A DNA stretch of 64,000 nucleotides from a bacterium HR40 (GTDB taxonomy: Bacteria > Pseudomonadota > Alphaproteobacteria > Geminicoccales > Geminicoccaceae), in the NCBI GenBank assembly GCA_002898275.1, contig BEIQ01000001.1, positions 1,109,899-1,173,898 on the forward strand, in the 5' to 3' direction. Under the pieces are notes generated by a model. The model was not told the origin of the DNA. It worked only from the letters and a program-made list of their open reading frames with translations, and ran no database searches. The translations under genes and the position numbers were made by a program. This document shows positions 53,811 through 60,287 of this stretch, one piece after another. Position 1 is the first letter of the stretch. Every line of letters starts with the position of its first letter.

Positions 53811-55241
53811 CTAGCGCTGTTCGCGCTCCCGGCGCGCCTCGGCGAGGGTCGCACGAAACGTCTCGAGCCGCTCGCCCAACAGATGGCAGCCGTAGAGCAG
53901 GCGCAGGATGACAGGCCTCGCGCCGGGCAGCGGAAAGCGCGGCGGCACCTGCGCCAAAAAGGGCGGCAGCGGCCAGTCGGGGGTACGTCCGGCGAGACGG
54001 AAGGCCGCCAGTCGGCCGGCGAGGGTGGCGAGCGCGACACCACTGCCATGCCAGCAACCGGCCAACCAGGCACCGGCAAGCCCGGGCAGCGGACCGAGGT
54101 GCGGCAGGCCATCGCGGGCGAGAGCGACGAGCCCCCACCAGGCATACTCGACGCTCACATGGCGCCAAGCGGGAAAGCGCTCCCGCATACGGGCCTCCAG
54201 CCAGGCTCGGCGTCGCAGGAAGCTGGCAGGGTCGGCGCGGAGACCGCCGCGGGCGCCGAACAGCAGCCGCTGGTCGGGCAAAAGGCGCATGTAGAACAAC
54301 AGCTCGCGCGTATCGGAGACGAGTGCGGGCACGAGAAAGCCCTGGGCCTCGCGCTCCGAGACGGTGAGCGGCCGGGTGACCAGGATCGCGGAGAGGACCG
54401 GCAGAGTGCGGCCCTCGAGCTCGCGGGCGAGGGTCTCGGGGGTGTAGGCATCGGTGGCGAACAGTACCCGCTCGGCCCACACCGTGCCCGAGGGTGTGAC
54501 CAGCCGGTGGAGCCGCCCCTCCCGTCGCCACTCGATCACGGGCGTTCGCTCGTGCACGCGGGCGCCATATTCGATCGACGCTCGCGCCAGGCCGCGGAGG
54601 TAGCGTAGCGGATGGAGGCCGAAGGCCGGCTGGAGGTGGAGTGCAGCGTACGCCTCCGCGAGCGCGATGCCGCGCTCGCGAAGCTCCGCTGGCGACAGCA
54701 ACGGCCACTCGGCAGCGGCGATGGCACGGGCCTCCTCGGCCGCTCGCTCGAGCATGCGGATGTGCCGGGGGGTGTGGGCCACCACATACTCGCCCTCGCC
54801 CGCCGCCCGCAGGTCGATCCGGTGGCGGAGCGCGAGGTCGCGTACGAGCTCCACGGCGTGGACCTGCAGCTGGTACCACTGGCGCGCCGCCTCGCTGCCG
54901 AAGCGGCGGGCGATCCAACCGAGCGAGCGCCGCGCCCCGCCCGGGCCGCAAAACCCGGCATTGCGTCCCGACGCGCCCCAGCCGAGGGGTCCCGCTTCCA
55001 GCACTCGCGCTTCGATGCCATGGTCGCGAGCGAGGTGCAGCGCCGCCGACAGGCCGGTCAGCCCACCGCCGACGATGGCGACCTCGGCATCGACATCCCC
55101 CTGGAGCGGGTCGACGGCCACCGGAGGCGGACCGCCGCTCGCGTGCCAGAAGGTGGCCGGTGCCCGCGACCAGTCGTAGTGATCGGCATGATAGAGGTGC
55201 GATGCCGGTGGTGGCCCGGCGGCGCGGACGGGACTGGACAT
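53811..55241 (-). CDS. FAD-dependent amine/amino-acid oxidase (DAO family, PuuB-like)
   Basis: 476 residues. The FAD-binding motif is VAIVGGGLTGLSAALHLARDHG near residue 53, followed by ARVLEAGPLGWGASGRNAGF, a hallmark of gamma-glutamylputrescine oxidase-like enzymes. The C-terminal FAD contact is WHGSGVALATLAGRLAA near 405. It probably oxidises an amine or amino acid with release of hydrogen peroxide. It is divergent from the 55310 gene with 68 bp between; whether it belongs to that module is unclear. Confidence 0.87.
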   Translation of the reverse strand: MSSPVRAAGPPPASHLYHADHYDWSRAPATFWHASGGPPPVAVDPLQGDVDAEVAIVGGGLTGLSAALHLARDHGIEARVLEAGPLGWGASGRNAGFCGPGGARRSLGWIARRFGSEAARQWYQLQVHAVELVRDLALRHRIDLRAAGEGEYVVAHTPRHIRMLERAAEEARAIAAAEWPLLSPAELRERGIALAEAYAALHLQPAFGLHPLRYLRGLARASIEYGARVHERTPVIEWRREGRLHRLVTPSGTVWAERVLFATDAYTPETLARELEGRTLPVLSAILVTRPLTVSEREAQGFLVPALVSDTRELLFYMRLLPDQRLLFGARGGLRADPASFLRRRAWLEARMRERFPAWRHVSVEYAWWGLVALARDGLPHLGPLPGLAGAWLAGCWHGSGVALATLAGRLAAFRLAGRTPDWPLPPFLAQVPPRFPLPGARPVILRLLYGCHLLGERLETFRATLAEARREREQR

Positions 55242-55309: not shown

Positions 55310-56017
55310 TTGGTCAAGCCACAGCTGCCGTCGGCCTACGATCTCGTGGTGCTCGAGGGCGAGCGCGATCCGGTAGCTCGCGCCTGTGCGCTCGCCCGCG
55401 ACAGGGGATCGGACGGCACGCTCGTATGGGCCGACCGGCCCGATCGCCTGTCGCTCGCGCTCCTCCTCGAACCGGACGCCGACCTGCGCACCACCGCCCT
55501 CGATTGGCACACCTTCACGGTTGCCGCCCAAGACGCGCTCGCCGGCCTCACCCTCGCTGCCTATCCCCTCCACTTCCGTTTCCCCAACCGGGTCCTCTTC
55601 GACGGTTGCGAGCTGGCGCGGCTACGCTGCGTCTGGCCGCGCAGGACTGCGCCCTGCGAGCGTCCGGCGTGGATCGTCTTCGGTCTCGAGGCGGAGATGC
55701 AGGAGCCGGCGGAACCCGGAGCCCAGCCCGAGCGCATGACCCTGGCCGGCGCCGGGGCGGAAGCCCCTCCTGTGGCCTTCGTCGAAGCCATCGCCCGACA
55801 GTTCCTCTATTGGCTCCAGCGGCGCGACGCGGTCGGATTCGAGGGCGTACGCCGGATCTGGAACCACCGACTCGAGCGGCGTGGCGAGCTCGGTAGCCTG
55901 CGGCTGGGCGGGATCGAGGCGGCAGGGGTGATCGAAGGACTCGATGCGGAAGGCCTGTTCCGGATCGGCGGACAGGCCATCGGCCTGTGGGACATCCCCG
56001 AGGAGATCCTCGCGTGA
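55310..56017 (+). CDS. Biotin/lipoate-protein-ligase-like protein lacking the catalytic lysine
   Basis: 235 residues. The fold pattern of BirA/LplA ligases can be followed: DGTLVWADRPDRLSLALLLEP stands where ligases have their adenylate-binding loop, and HFRFPNRVLFDGCELARLR (88-106) where they have KWPND...GRKLAGIL. The KWPND lysine is Arg90 and the GRK lysine is replaced by Cys100-Glu101, so a normal ligase reaction is unlikely. The C-terminus (RLGGIEAAGVIEGLDAEG) resembles DUF4444. TTG start with GGAGG upstream. First gene of the module; GTGA overlap with the next. Confidence 0.75.
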   Translation: MVKPQLPSAYDLVVLEGERDPVARACALARDRGSDGTLVWADRPDRLSLALLLEPDADLRTTALDWHTFTVAAQDALAGLTLAAYPLHFRFPNRVLFDGCELARLRCVWPRRTAPCERPAWIVFGLEAEMQEPAEPGAQPERMTLAGAGAEAPPVAFVEAIARQFLYWLQRRDAVGFEGVRRIWNHRLERRGELGSLRLGGIEAAGVIEGLDAEGLFRIGGQAIGLWDIPEEILA

Positions 56018-56511
56018 GCGGCCTGCGGCTCCTGCGCACCCTGCGCTTCGATGCCACCGACGAGCTCGTCTTCGAGCACGCCGCGGCGCCCGACGAGTGG
56101 GCGGTTCCCGGTGGGTTCGCGTTCGCCAACGACACCCCCGAAACCCTGATCGGCAAGCGCCTGCAGGCTTTCCGCCACGGCTTCCTCGGGCTCGACAGCT
56201 TCGGCTGGTCGACTTTTGTCGCCGTGGCCGCCGTCAGTCCCGAAATCCTCGATGAGCTGACCGTTCGCCTCGCTCGCCATTTCGTCGATCGTTACGGCGC
56301 TCCCGACCTTGCAGCGGCGCTGCCGGTAGCGCGCCACGAGTTGGACTTCGCCCGCTCGCTTGCCGAGCCGCACCCGACCAACACCGTGCTCGCGGTCGAG
56401 CGCGAGCTGGTCGACGAGGGCGTGCGCGAACGCTTCCGGGTGGTGAAGCCCGCGGGCGGCGAAGTGCACGCGCGGGTCTTCGACATCGTGGCCGGTGAAG
56501 AGGAGCCGTGA
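56014..56511 (+). CDS. DUF6505-like protein of unknown function
   Basis: 165 residues from a GTG overlapping the previous stop. No catalytic motif is seen. The N-terminus GLRLLRTLRFDATDELVFEH, the block GGFAFANDTPETLIGKRLQAF and FLGLDSFGWSTFVAVA match my memory of the DUF6505 family. No signal peptide or membrane helix. Coupled on both sides, with ATG/GTG-TGA overlaps, to the ligase-like and DUF6352-like genes, so the three are probably made in step and may form a complex. Confidence 0.75.
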   Translation: MSGLRLLRTLRFDATDELVFEHAAAPDEWAVPGGFAFANDTPETLIGKRLQAFRHGFLGLDSFGWSTFVAVAAVSPEILDELTVRLARHFVDRYGAPDLAAALPVARHELDFARSLAEPHPTNTVLAVERELVDEGVRERFRVVKPAGGEVHARVFDIVAGEEEP

Positions 56512-57530
56512 GCCGTTCGCTGTCCTTCTGGCCCTCCGACCGCCTCGACTTGCTCGCGCACGACGACACGGGCCGCCTGCGCCTCACCGATGCTTGGCTC
56601 CTCTCCTGGCTCGACCGTCCGGAGCTCGCGCTCGCACCCGAAAGCTGCGCTGCGGAGCGCCAGCTCCACGCCGCCCTCACCGAGGATCCGCGGTGCACGG
56701 TCGGGCCAGCCGCGGTCGCCGCCATCCGCGATCCGGACGTGCGGGAGAACTGGCAGCTGTTCCTCGCCTTCCGCGACCATTTGCTCGCCCATGGCACCAT
56801 CGATGAGGCCTGGGCCGCACTCTTCCGGACACCGCACCCGCCCGTAGCACCTCCTTTCGTCGATGCCCTCGCTCGGCTGCTCGTCCACGATATGCTCCGG
56901 ACGGAGCGTGACGCTTTCGTGCTGCGCGCGGCCGAGATGTTCTTCCGACCGCAGAGGGCGAGCGTGCAGAACGGGCGGGTGTTGGTCGCCGATGCCGAGA
57001 CCGTGGAGCGGCTCGCTCGCGGCGAAGCCTTTGGCCGCCTCGGCACCCTGCTGCGCGAGACGGGGATCCCGCTGCAGCCGGTCGAACTCGACGTCCTCGA
57101 TGAGGAACGCGCGTCCGACTGGTTCTCTCGTTCCGAGCGGTTCGATTTCGTGCTCGACCTCGGCTTCGGCGGTCGCGGCCTCGACGCGCTCTGTCGGGTG
57201 CTGGAGCGCTGGGTGGTGCGGCTGTTCGGCATCGAGGTCGCGGTCCAGCCGCTCGCCCGGATCCGCGACGAACGCTGGCGTTGGCACCTGGGCCTCGACG
57301 GCGAGGCGACAGCCATTTTGAACGATCTCTATGCCGGCCGCGAGGTCAGCGACGAGCGGCTCGCCCGGCTCGTTGCCCTGTTCCGACTCGATTTCCGCGA
57401 CCCCGAGGTGGTGCGGCCGGAGGTCCGGGGCTTCCCCGTCTACATGGGGCTCGCCATGGATGCCGGCAGCCGGGTGCGGCTCAAGCCGCAGAACCTGCTC
57501 GTCAACCTGCCCCTGGTAAGGGCGGCCTAG
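56508..57530 (+). CDS. DUF6352-like protein of unknown function
   Basis: 340 residues, GTG start coupled to the previous stop. It opens SRSLSFWPSDRLDLLAHD, then has LRLTDAWLLSWLDRPELAL, a long helical middle (NWQLFLAFRDHLLAHGTIDEAW), FVLRAAEMFFRPQRASVQNGRV near 140 and ends YMGLAMDAGSRVRLKPQNLL. This agrees with the DUF6352 family as I recall it. Cytoplasmic, no cofactor motif, no cysteine clusters. A small gene follows after 17 bp. Confidence 0.75.
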   Translation: MSRSLSFWPSDRLDLLAHDDTGRLRLTDAWLLSWLDRPELALAPESCAAERQLHAALTEDPRCTVGPAAVAAIRDPDVRENWQLFLAFRDHLLAHGTIDEAWAALFRTPHPPVAPPFVDALARLLVHDMLRTERDAFVLRAAEMFFRPQRASVQNGRVLVADAETVERLARGEAFGRLGTLLRETGIPLQPVELDVLDEERASDWFSRSERFDFVLDLGFGGRGLDALCRVLERWVVRLFGIEVAVQPLARIRDERWRWHLGLDGEATAILNDLYAGREVSDERLARLVALFRLDFRDPEVVRPEVRGFPVYMGLAMDAGSRVRLKPQNLLVNLPLVRAA

Positions 57531-57547
57531 CGGGAAGGAGCACAAAG

Positions 57548-57754
57548 ATGGACGAGAACGTGCTCAACCTGAGCGTGCGCAAGTTCCTCAAGAAGCTCGG
57601 CGTGACCGCCCAGCGCGAGATCGAGCGTCGCGTGGCGGAAGCGGCAGCGCAGGCTCGCCTCGGCAGAGATGCCAGGCTTGCGATCGCGGCGCATATCACG
57701 GTGCCGGCGATCGGTCTCGAGCTCGCGGTCGACGGCACCCTCGAACTGGAGTAA
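57548..57754 (+). CDS. DUF6494-like small protein
   Basis: 68 residues. MDENVLNLSVRKFLKKLGVT followed by an arginine/glutamate-rich helix and ITVPAIGLELAVDGTLELE fits the small DUF6494 family. AAGGAG lies before the ATG. It is part of the 55310-57992 run. Its size and charged helix suggest a binding partner rather than an enzyme; this is inference. Confidence 0.75.
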   Translation: MDENVLNLSVRKFLKKLGVTAQREIERRVAEAAAQARLGRDARLAIAAHITVPAIGLELAVDGTLELE

Positions 57755-57824
57755 AAGGCTCTCCGGTCGGCCGCCCCTTCACCCTTGCCGTACGGACGGA
57801 GACCGAAGGGGAGAGAGGTGGATC

Positions 57825-57992
57825 ATGCGCCCAGGACCTGCGCTCGCTCTCGTTCTCCTCATCCCCCTCGTGGCCTGCGTCGCCAAGGTCACCCCGCCCA
57901 AGGTCGAGGTCGGGACGGCGCCGGTCGTGGTGGAAGTCGGCGGTCGGCCGGGCTTCTGCCCACCTGGCCAGGCGAAGAAGGGCAACTGCTGA
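57825..57992 (+). CDS. Small lipoprotein with CPPGQAKK tail
   Basis: 55 residues. A lipoprotein signal ends in the lipobox LVAC (residues 15-18), and a short Val/Pro-rich stretch leads to GFCPPGQAKKGNC at the end. The CPPGxAKK motif is also seen in RcnB-like periplasmic proteins. GGGAGAGAGG before the ATG supports translation. It lies 70 bp after the DUF6494-like gene and converges on the ferredoxin gene with only 7 bp between. Confidence 0.7.
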   Translation: MRPGPALALVLLIPLVACVAKVTPPKVEVGTAPVVVEVGGRPGFCPPGQAKKGNC

Positions 57993-57999
57993 GGCGGCC

Positions 58000-60081
58000 T
58001 CAGCTCCGTCCAGCTGGGCCTTCGCCACCGGGCTTCCCGTCCGCGCGCGGCTGGCGACGGATCGCTTCGCCTTCCTCGCGCTCGCGCAGATAGTCTTCGG
58101 TCGTCCGTGGCTTGCGCGGGGTGCCGAGGACGAACGGCCTGTCCTCGGCCTCGAACTGCGCGACGACACGACAGTCGGCGCACATCTGCAGCCAGGCGAT
58201 CTGGCGTTCCGAGCGATACATCCAGTGGCTGCCGGCGAGCTTGGCGAGGATGCGGTCGATCGAGCTCTTCACTCCGAACGGCTTGCCGCAGCGGATGCAG
58301 GAGAACGGTTCCTCCTCCTTGACCAGGCGAGGGCCAGCGACGAGGGCGCCGAAGGCGAGCCGCGGCTCGAGCCGAATCACTTTTTCCGGGCAGGTGTTGC
58401 GGCAGAGGCCGCACTGCACGCAAAGAGCCTCGTCGAAACGCAACATCGGCCGGTCGGGATTGTCGAGGAGCGCCCCCGTCGGGCAAGCGCCGACGCAGGA
58501 GAGACAGAGCGTGCACCCCTCGGTATCGACGACGACCGTGCCATAGGGTGCCCCAGGCGGAAGCGGGATCGCTTCGACCGGGTTTGCCGCCTGCGCGTGG
58601 AGATGATCGAAGGCGAGCCGGGCGAGCTGGCGCTTCGTCCCGAGGGCAGCGTGAGTGGCCGGCGCAAGGGATGGACCGTCGAACGGCGCCCGCAACAGCC
58701 CGTCCACGACTTCCGGATCGTCCTCGAACAGCAGCAGGAGCCGCTCCCGGCCGTAACCCAGCCCGTCCAGCACCTCCTGCACCACCTGCACGTTCTGCTC
58801 GAGACCGGGGAGCTCCGCCCTCTTGCTGGGCGGTGCCAACACCATCACCCGGCGCGCGCCCCAGGCGAAGGCCGAAGCGAGAAGCTCGATGCCGATCAAG
58901 CCGATCTCGGGCAGACGGAACGGCAGGGTGCGCGCCGGCAGGCCGCGTCCGAGGCGCGCCCACAGGCTCAACATCTCGCCGCCATGCCGATCCTCGTAGA
59001 GAAGGAGATCCGGCGCCGCACCGCCCGCCCGCAGGAAGGTCAGGAGCAGGGTGCGCAGACGCTCGAGCAGAAAGGACGGCGCAGGGGAGGCGTAGCTCAC
59101 CGCGGCGGTCGGGCAAACCCCGCTACAACTGCCGCAGCCGGCGCAGACATGCGGTTCGATCACCACCCGGTCCTCGCCCGAGGTGATGGCCCCGGTGGGA
59201 CAGACATCGAGACAGCGCGTGCAGCCCACGATGCGCGAGCGCATGTGCACGCACACGCCCTCGTCGTAGGTGACATAACGCGGCTTCTCGAACTCGCCCA
59301 CCATGTCGGTGAGCTGGAAGAGCGCGCGTTCGACGGCGAGGGGATCGGCGGGATCGACCCAGAGATAGCCGTCGCGCTTGGCCGGAGCGGGAAAGAGCGG
59401 CGTTTCGCCCGAGAGATCGAGGATCAGATCGCAGGTGAGCTGGCTCTGGGGAACGGGCTCGCCGAAGACCAGCGCGGCCCGCGAGGAAGGCCGCGCAGCG
59501 GCGAAATCCTCGACCTCGAGCTCGAAACGGCCGAGCCAGCCGCGTGCCTGCCGGATGCGTCCGCGGAACACCGGCACGTTCCACGCCCGCGGTGGGATGA
59601 TGTCGCCAGCCTCCCGCAACAACACCCTCGGCGCCAGGCGATCGGCGAGCCGGCGGGCGGCCTCGAGGGCGAGCTCGCCGCGACCGTAGACCACGATCTC
59701 TCCACCCGAACTCAGGCTCACCGACGGCGCCGGCTCCCCCTCCAACAGCGCTTCGGCGAGCAATGCCGCCATCTTGGCAGCCGCGCCCTCCCCCTCGTCC
59801 GACCAGCCGGCGCGATCGCGGAGATCGACGAACCGCAAGGCGCTCCCGAAACCCGCAGCCTGCGCCACCTCGTCGAACACGGCGGCCTCTTGTTCACAGG
59901 CCACCAGCAGGGGTTCGCCGCTGGCGAGCGCCCGTTGAAAGTGCGCGATCTGAGCGCGGCAGAGCTGATCGAAGGGCTCTTCGACCGCGCTCGCCCCGAG
60001 AGCGGAGGCGATGGCCCGCACATCGACGGACATCGTCCCCTCGCAACGGCAGAGAAGACAGCGTCGGCCTGCCACCCGCAT
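58000..60081 (-). CDS. Multi-cluster 4Fe-4S ferredoxin-domain protein
   Basis: 693 residues from the ATG at 60081. Cysteine motifs in order: RRCLLCRCEGTM at residues 7-17; CTRCLDVCPTGAI and CAGCGSCSGVCPTAAV near 283-325; CTLCLSCVGACPTGAL and CVQCGLCRNTCPEKVI near 523-565; then CIRCGKPFG and CADCRVV near 595-635, like a zinc ribbon. That is four 4Fe-4S sites plus metal-binding extras. The first 280 residues contain a CoA-disulfide-like fold fragment (IVVYGRGELALEAARRLADR). It is a soluble electron carrier or hub; partners of this type are linked to formate dehydrogenase loci in relatives. Confidence 0.85.
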   Translation of the reverse strand: MRVAGRRCLLCRCEGTMSVDVRAIASALGASAVEEPFDQLCRAQIAHFQRALASGEPLLVACEQEAAVFDEVAQAAGFGSALRFVDLRDRAGWSDEGEGAAAKMAALLAEALLEGEPAPSVSLSSGGEIVVYGRGELALEAARRLADRLAPRVLLREAGDIIPPRAWNVPVFRGRIRQARGWLGRFELEVEDFAAARPSSRAALVFGEPVPQSQLTCDLILDLSGETPLFPAPAKRDGYLWVDPADPLAVERALFQLTDMVGEFEKPRYVTYDEGVCVHMRSRIVGCTRCLDVCPTGAITSGEDRVVIEPHVCAGCGSCSGVCPTAAVSYASPAPSFLLERLRTLLLTFLRAGGAAPDLLLYEDRHGGEMLSLWARLGRGLPARTLPFRLPEIGLIGIELLASAFAWGARRVMVLAPPSKRAELPGLEQNVQVVQEVLDGLGYGRERLLLLFEDDPEVVDGLLRAPFDGPSLAPATHAALGTKRQLARLAFDHLHAQAANPVEAIPLPPGAPYGTVVVDTEGCTLCLSCVGACPTGALLDNPDRPMLRFDEALCVQCGLCRNTCPEKVIRLEPRLAFGALVAGPRLVKEEEPFSCIRCGKPFGVKSSIDRILAKLAGSHWMYRSERQIAWLQMCADCRVVAQFEAEDRPFVLGTPRKPRTTEDYLREREEGEAIRRQPRADGKPGGEGPAGRS

Positions 60082-60193
60082 GCTCTGGCTCCGCCCCTCG
60101 CGATCCCGGCCGTAGCGCCGGTCGGCCTGCCCACGGGAGTTGAGCGGCGGCACCGGCAAATCAAGCCGCTCCCACACTCCCGAGCTTCTGCGG

Positions 60194-60222
60194 TTGCAAG
60201 GCCGGGGACACTCGGGCAGGAT
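60194..60222 (+). promoter_or_regulatory. Possible promoter of the sugar ABC importer
   Basis: TTGCAA (60194-60199), 17 bp spacer, CAGGAT (60217-60222), 66 bp before the binding-protein ATG. The -10 is weak. Confidence 0.35.
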
Positions 60223-60238
60223 GCGCGCCGCGTCCCGA

Positions 60239-60255
60239 GGGAGCGTTCCGCTCCC
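60239..60255. promoter_or_regulatory. Inverted repeat, candidate operator of the sugar ABC importer
   Basis: GGGAGCG-TTC-CGCTCCC, perfect 7 bp arms, just downstream of the predicted promoter. The arm sequence resembles LacI-family operators of sugar genes in alphaproteobacteria (GGGAGCGCTCCC-like) but with a 3-base spacer. No regulator gene is in view; a leader hairpin is the alternative. Confidence 0.4.
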
Positions 60256-60287
60256 GTTCACGTTGCGTGCCCGAGGGAGGCCTTTCC

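Follow-up and report, generated by a model that had tools for sequence, protein, structure and literature searches.

In a 64,000-nucleotide stretch of the bacterium HR40 genome (contig BEIQ01000001.1, assembly GCA_002898275.1, positions 1,109,899-1,173,898; hereafter the window, in whose positions feature coordinates are given), six genes at 55310-60081 encode a biotin/lipoate ligase-like protein, members of the DUF6505, DUF6352 and DUF6494 families, a small predicted lipoprotein and a large iron-sulfur (Fe-S) protein, designated here Fer4x. Across Pseudomonadota, the genes of this module belong with near certainty to the locus of the FDH3-type formate dehydrogenase (FDH), which is exported by the twin-arginine translocation (Tat) pathway. 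The window genes probably represent the cytoplasmic accessory half of an FDH3 locus that is split in this genome, and would form a maturation system independent of FdhE in which Fer4x has a NapF-like role. Taken together, the genes resemble a hitherto undescribed toolkit by which the Fe-S and metal cofactors of the enzyme would be loaded before export.

A conserved formate dehydrogenase locus and its split

The original prediction, made from the DNA sequence of the window, linked such genes to formate dehydrogenase and TorD, and this link proved to be very strong both in conserved loci and in genome profiles. Co-occurrence was profiled in one fixed sample of 199 Pseudomonadota genomes, 31 of which encode FdhA of the FDH3 type. 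All 13 genomes with DUF6352 (hypergeometric p 2e-12, by genus 3e-8), all 19 with DUF6505 (9e-19, by genus 2e-12) and all 18 with the ligase-like pseudoenzyme described below (1e-17; these 18 also encode DUF6505) contain FdhA, as do 11 of the 13 with DUF6494 (1e-8), although these p-values overstate the strength of the association because the sampled genomes are related. Fer4x is present in 31/31 FdhA genomes. DUF6494 occurs without this FdhA in two genomes, G107 and G166 (L282 7600 and L283 7000), and has therefore at least one other context.

DUF6352 is often found alone, with 22 of the 41 loci with full flanks showing fewer than two other module genes. When 30 genomes with a lone DUF6352 were searched whole, 27 encoded FdhA in full (1125 bits or more), a fragment at a contig edge (59% identity) was found in one, and two metagenome-assembled genomes had none; the four such genomes of the first sample had FdhA in 4/4 cases. 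In the DUF6352 tree, the window protein groups, with support, with two linked loci of the Geminicoccaceae type, and five changes are needed among the linked, alone and window states, indicating repeated changes of linkage in genomes that kept the enzyme. Independent scatter of the genes with no accompanying redox enzyme, which would speak against the link, was thus not observed, FDH being nearly always retained in the genomes of detached genes.

Most often, the series ligase-like-DUF6505-DUF6352-DUF3305-DUF3306-TorD-FdhA-Fdh3B-FdhC runs divergently from Fer4x. This arrangement is seen in Sinorhizobium, Bradyrhizobium and Microvirga on annotated plasmids (DUF3305 of Microvirga being assigned by profile), with a small Tat-signal protein between TorD and FdhA, and with genes for cytochrome c, FdhD, MobA/MoeA and a Tup-type transporter nearby; the conserved locus is also found on Pseudosulfitobacter plasmids. 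Profiles made from the plasmid loci and run over ~130 loci recovered the same gene set in Rhizobiales, Rhodospirillales, Elioraea, Geminicoccaceae and others. The presence of a TorD gene in FDH3 loci alongside DUF3305 and DUF3306 has already been reported (PMC4464133), and in this respect the system resembles those served by the NarJ/TorD/DmsD maturation proteins, but the literature searched makes no mention of the additional layer formed by the ligase-like protein, DUF6505 and DUF6352. The same literature contains no mention of DUF6494, and no functional studies of the three DUF families were found in it.

The original prediction noted the absence of a dehydrogenase, which is true for the window but not for the genome. 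The FDH half (DUF3305-DUF3306-TorD-FdhA-Fdh3B-FdhC and a further downstream gene) lies at ~583.6-592 kb of the same contig (locus L054), ~575 kb away, so that the window genes are not contiguous with fdhABC and no dehydrogenase is visible in the window because the locus is split. The FdhA of this genome has 959 residues, a Tat motif (RRTFLRR) and a Cys active site, and is 63-64% identical to Sinorhizobium FdhA. In relatives from the same family (L296, L297, L300), the halves are joined, with a DAO-family gene, the ligase-like gene, DUF6505 (not in all), DUF6352, DUF6494, Fer4x and the genes from DUF3305 to FdhC in one locus. Fer4x adjoins the FDH half in L296, L297 and L174, and judging from this gene order the break in the window locus appears to lie exactly between Fer4x and DUF3305. 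The apparent cut interval is 60082-60266, where DUF3305-DUF3306-TorD-FdhABC begins in these three loci; in the window, a gene for a sugar-type ATP-binding cassette transporter binding protein begins at 60267. Another relative (G212) is split elsewhere, between DUF6494 and Fer4x, and the different cut points indicate that both halves stayed in the genome after separate events.

Beside the FDH3 operon of bacterium HR40 (L054 16809-18566 and L055, ~593-597 kb) there is a second molybdopterin FDH alpha-like gene together with a fused NuoE/NuoF-like protein, which probably constitute a cytoplasmic NAD-dependent formate dehydrogenase. A second molybdoenzyme, ~9 kb from FDH3, is likewise encoded in the family relatives G199, G212 and G213.

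Fer4x and the proteins of the accessory half

All six genes are present and real, as judged by open reading frames and Pfam matches, and they lie in the order originally described. Fer4x (58000-60081, minus strand, 693 aa) matches several Fer4 models and contains 26 Cys residues, including four standard [4Fe-4S] sites arranged as two ferredoxin-type pairs. Its description as a four-cluster ferredoxin was an undercount, as there are in addition an N-terminal domain with four invariant Cys (11, 13, 41 and 62) and a C-terminal CxxC...CxxC site (Cys 595/598/634/637).

An HdrA N-terminal sequence used as a tblastn query led to the Haladaptatus protein P0006, which is annotated as a 'hydrogenase iron-sulfur subunit' and is encoded between FDH alpha and TorD. 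The window Fer4x aligns with P0006 over its full length (BLASTP 9e-27, hhalign 1e-41), and P0006 matches both an annotated HdrA (3e-12) and Pfam FlpD (3.5e-18). Direct comparison of the Fer4x N-terminal domain profile with the PDB or with one HdrA gave weak or non-significant scores, and the HdrA link therefore holds only through the haloarchaeal fusion. On these alignments, Fer4x is homologous over its whole length to an archaeal HdrA-N/FlpD fusion, and more than a ferredoxin. Its collinearity with this fusion connects Fer4x to HdrA and FlpD/MvhD, iron-sulfur subunits of heterodisulfide reductase and hydrogenase, but it has an extra ferredoxin pair and a Cys4 tail, and its partners are TorD and FdhABC rather than HdrBC. 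No Pfam Rossmann or flavin adenine dinucleotide (FAD) domain was found in Fer4x or P0006, whereas this domain is clear in the HdrA protein P0007.

A Fer4x homologue from Natronorubrum bangense (L310 8980-12490) is encoded beside TorD and an NrfD-type molybdoenzyme, near arsenic-resistance genes and with an unannotated ApbC-like open reading frame just downstream. The Fer4x family may serve more than formate dehydrogenases. In gammaproteobacterial Fer4x proteins (L261, L262, L264, L265, L268, L269 and L271), the N-terminal Cys domain is absent and the first ferredoxin pair is short of one ligand, with CxxCxxC changed to CxxVxxC in most of them, a pattern that suggests a reduced cluster set.

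The first gene of the accessory operon (55310-56017, plus strand) has a TTG start codon preceded by AGGAGG, and its product belongs to the biotin/lipoate ligase-like family PF16917 (E=2e-31). It shares this fold family with BirA-type biotin protein ligases and is distantly related to 3bfm (E=2e-9), an orphan structure that has been solved but has no assigned function. The PF16917 alignment comprised 49 proteins from these loci. In 48 of them, the GRGRxG adenylate/biotin loop is deleted (~15 residues) and the catalytic lysine of the KWPND motif is replaced by Arg, Gly, Asp, His, Leu or another residue; based on this loss of both catalytic motifs, the ligase-like protein is judged to be a pseudoenzyme. 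Only the protein from L278 (genome G016) keeps both motifs. This match (95.9 bits) was rejected as a pseudoenzyme and treated as a canonical ligase, which leaves the pseudoenzyme in 18 rather than 19 of the DUF6505 genomes.

DUF6505 (56014-56511, plus strand, 165 aa; PF20115, E=1e-56) and DUF6352 (56508-57530, plus strand, 340 aa; PF19879, E=2e-62) both start with GTG; the longer frame listed for DUF6505, beginning at 55987, was replaced by the start at 56014. The ligase-like/DUF6505 and DUF6505/DUF6352 junctions are GTGA stop/start overlaps. The AlphaFold models of both DUF proteins are confident (mean predicted local distance difference test score 92 each). No usable PDB match was obtained for DUF6505 (Foldseek best E 0.46, VIA-align best Z 2.8) or DUF6352 (best E 1.7, best Z 3.2), an absence from the result lists that is not proof of new folds, and their sequence profiles gave nothing significant against the PDB. 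Neither family has conserved Cys pairs, which makes it unlikely that they bind Fe-S clusters themselves. Profile-profile comparison among the module families and with TorD and FdhD revealed no hidden similarity of note.

DUF6494 (57548-57754, plus strand, 68 aa; PF20104, E=7e-23) is a recurrent but looser member. The original prediction counted three genes as translationally coupled to the ligase-like gene; the overlaps are confined to the first three genes of the operon, and DUF6494 starts 17 bp past DUF6352 behind a good ribosome-binding site of its own. The lipoprotein gene (57825-57992, plus strand, 55 aa; lipobox LVAC) follows 70 bp downstream of DUF6494, and its stop is separated by 7 bp from the convergent stop of Fer4x, as originally reported. 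Its product, which ends in FCPPGQAKKGNC, has no homologue in the other loci scanned, and contrary to the original prediction the gene is probably outside the conserved set. On the other side of the operon, a DAO-family FAD oxidoreductase gene (53811-55241, minus strand) is divergent from the adjoining ligase-like gene. It is likewise found beside the ligase-like gene in the relatives L296, L297, L300 and L301, and may be a conserved neighbour within this family.

Possible roles in maturation, electron transfer and other processes

Three observations bear on whether the module handles cofactors or transfers electrons, the two possibilities raised originally. A simple hydropathy check found no Tat signal or membrane segment in the module proteins, FdhA carries a Tat motif, and in several clades a gene for an Fe-S carrier ATPase of the ApbC/Mrp/NUBPL type lies within the accessory operon. 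In Rhodobacteraceae, which lack DUF6352, such an ATPase gene (PF10609, 1.6e-101, plus PF01883) is flanked by the ligase-like gene on one side and by DUF6494 or Fer4x on the other; it adjoins Fer4x in the f40 family and two Bradyrhizobium-type loci, and is upstream of DUF3305 in G175 and of TorD in L242. Overall, an ApbC/NUBPL gene adjoins Fer4x, ligase-like or FDH genes in 13 of the 59 loci with FdhA or Fer4x, and besides these it was found at the Natronorubrum and Pseudosulfitobacter loci. Because of these three observations, we infer that cofactor handling in the form of maturation fits the module better, and catalytic electron transfer less well. Some ATPases of these loci are short, with 281-292 aa in the f40 and Bradyrhizobium loci (L266 12434-13279, L267 12292-13137, L065 5080-5949 and L066 5004-5882), and in L266, the one checked for this, the N-terminal FeS_assembly_P domain is missing. 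The idea that DUF6352 and the ATPase replace each other was rejected, since both are present in L065 and L066.

FdhE has been described as systematically associated with periplasmic FDHs (PMC10609526). This usual helper of such enzymes was found in 0/33 genomes searched (PF04216, FdhE_N), while the E. coli positive control was detected; a complementarity between FdhE and DUF6352 was rejected, as none of the 33 genomes has FdhE. The system resembles the maturation of FDH-N and FDH-O by FdhE and FdhD in E. coli in that accessory proteins serve a Tat-exported respiratory FDH and FdhD is kept in many loci, but TorD and the module are found instead of FdhE. Another parallel may be NapF, a cytoplasmic four-cluster protein required for Fe-S assembly in NapA (PMC10609526). 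Like NapF, Fer4x has four [4Fe-4S] sites, would be cytoplasmic and accompanies a molybdoenzyme exported by Tat together with the chaperone of its Tat signal; by analogy it may have a NapF-type role, although Fer4x is ~4x larger and has HdrA-N-like and FlpD-like parts and the Cys4 site.

In the proposed scheme, FDH3, consisting of FdhA with bis-molybdopterin guanine dinucleotide (bis-MGD) and Fe-S, Fdh3B with several [4Fe-4S] clusters, and the cytochrome b-type FdhC, would be put together in the cytoplasm before its export through Tat. TorD would hold the FdhA precursor, and Fer4x, in which no flavin site is recognisable, would bind to the apo-enzyme and either supply Fe-S clusters or keep them reduced, comparable to NapF acting on NapA. 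In several lineages, a dedicated ApbC/NUBPL ATPase would deliver the clusters. The presumably dead ligase-like protein, DUF6505 and DUF6352 would be clade-specific assembly or quality-control factors, with which the system could work without FdhE.

Several points weigh against this scheme. The accessory layer is not universal: besides the Rhodobacteraceae without DUF6352, betaproteobacteria have DUF6352 but no DUF6505 or strong ligase-like match, and gammaproteobacteria have neither. Such variation between clades makes one fixed complex unlikely. Most loci lack the ApbC/NUBPL gene, and there is none near the window genes; the DUF6352 and DUF6505 folds offer no functional hint; and Fer4x could equally pass electrons catalytically.

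The last point is the basis of the main alternative, in which electrons would move between FDH3 and a carrier in the cytoplasm through Fer4x as a working redox partner, in the manner of HdrA/FlpD in heterodisulfide reductase-FDH complexes, with the DUF proteins as structural subunits. The HdrA-N and FlpD ancestry of Fer4x, its four or more clusters and its presence in every FdhA genome of the sample are all compatible with such a function. We consider it unlikely, given that FdhA has a Tat signal and Fer4x has none, that the expected outlet on the quinone side is FdhC, that neither Fer4x nor P0006 has the FAD domain, and that the partners of the Natronorubrum homologue are TorD and an enzyme of the NrfD type, not an FDH. 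It is more doubtful still that the module acts on the tungsten (or molybdenum) bis-MGD cofactor, by selecting, sulfurating or inserting it, and not on Fe-S clusters: FdhD, MobA, MobB, MoeA, molybdopterin-binding proteins and TupABC-like transporters are frequent neighbours, but named genes for such functions (TorD, FdhD, MobA) are already present at these loci, no pterin-binding domain occurs in the module, and the carrier gene within the operon is of the Fe-S type. Control of FDH3 synthesis by the ligase-like protein and DUF6352, with Fer4x as a separate entity, is highly improbable, because even if a non-catalytic ligase fold could bind a ligand and DUF6352 is often apart from the locus, no member has a DNA-binding domain, the genes overlap tightly with those of the FDH locus, and the co-occurrence is with the enzyme.

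Compared with its assignment to maturation, a more general reading of the module is plausible but falls somewhat short of probable. The module would be a machine dedicated to Fe-S loading and proofreading of exported FDHs, and in haloarchaea for other Tat-exported molybdoenzymes too, that works independently of FdhE. An HdrA-derived polyferredoxin would be joined in different clades by a paralogue of ApbC/NUBPL, by a ligase pseudoenzyme and by two proteins whose folds match none recognised, with a Fer4x-TorD core common to Bacteria and Archaea.

Possible implications for formate dehydrogenase assembly

A large group of genomes without detectable FdhE keeps another gene set instead, which bears on how Fe-S clusters are loaded into periplasmic FDHs and how these are checked before export. 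Maturation of the FDH catalytic subunit is reported to be a bottleneck in new hosts (PMC13396061), and the genes identified here are candidates for making active tungsten or molybdenum formate dehydrogenases in such hosts. With this assignment, three uncharacterised Pfam families and the solved orphan structure 3bfm gain a testable role.

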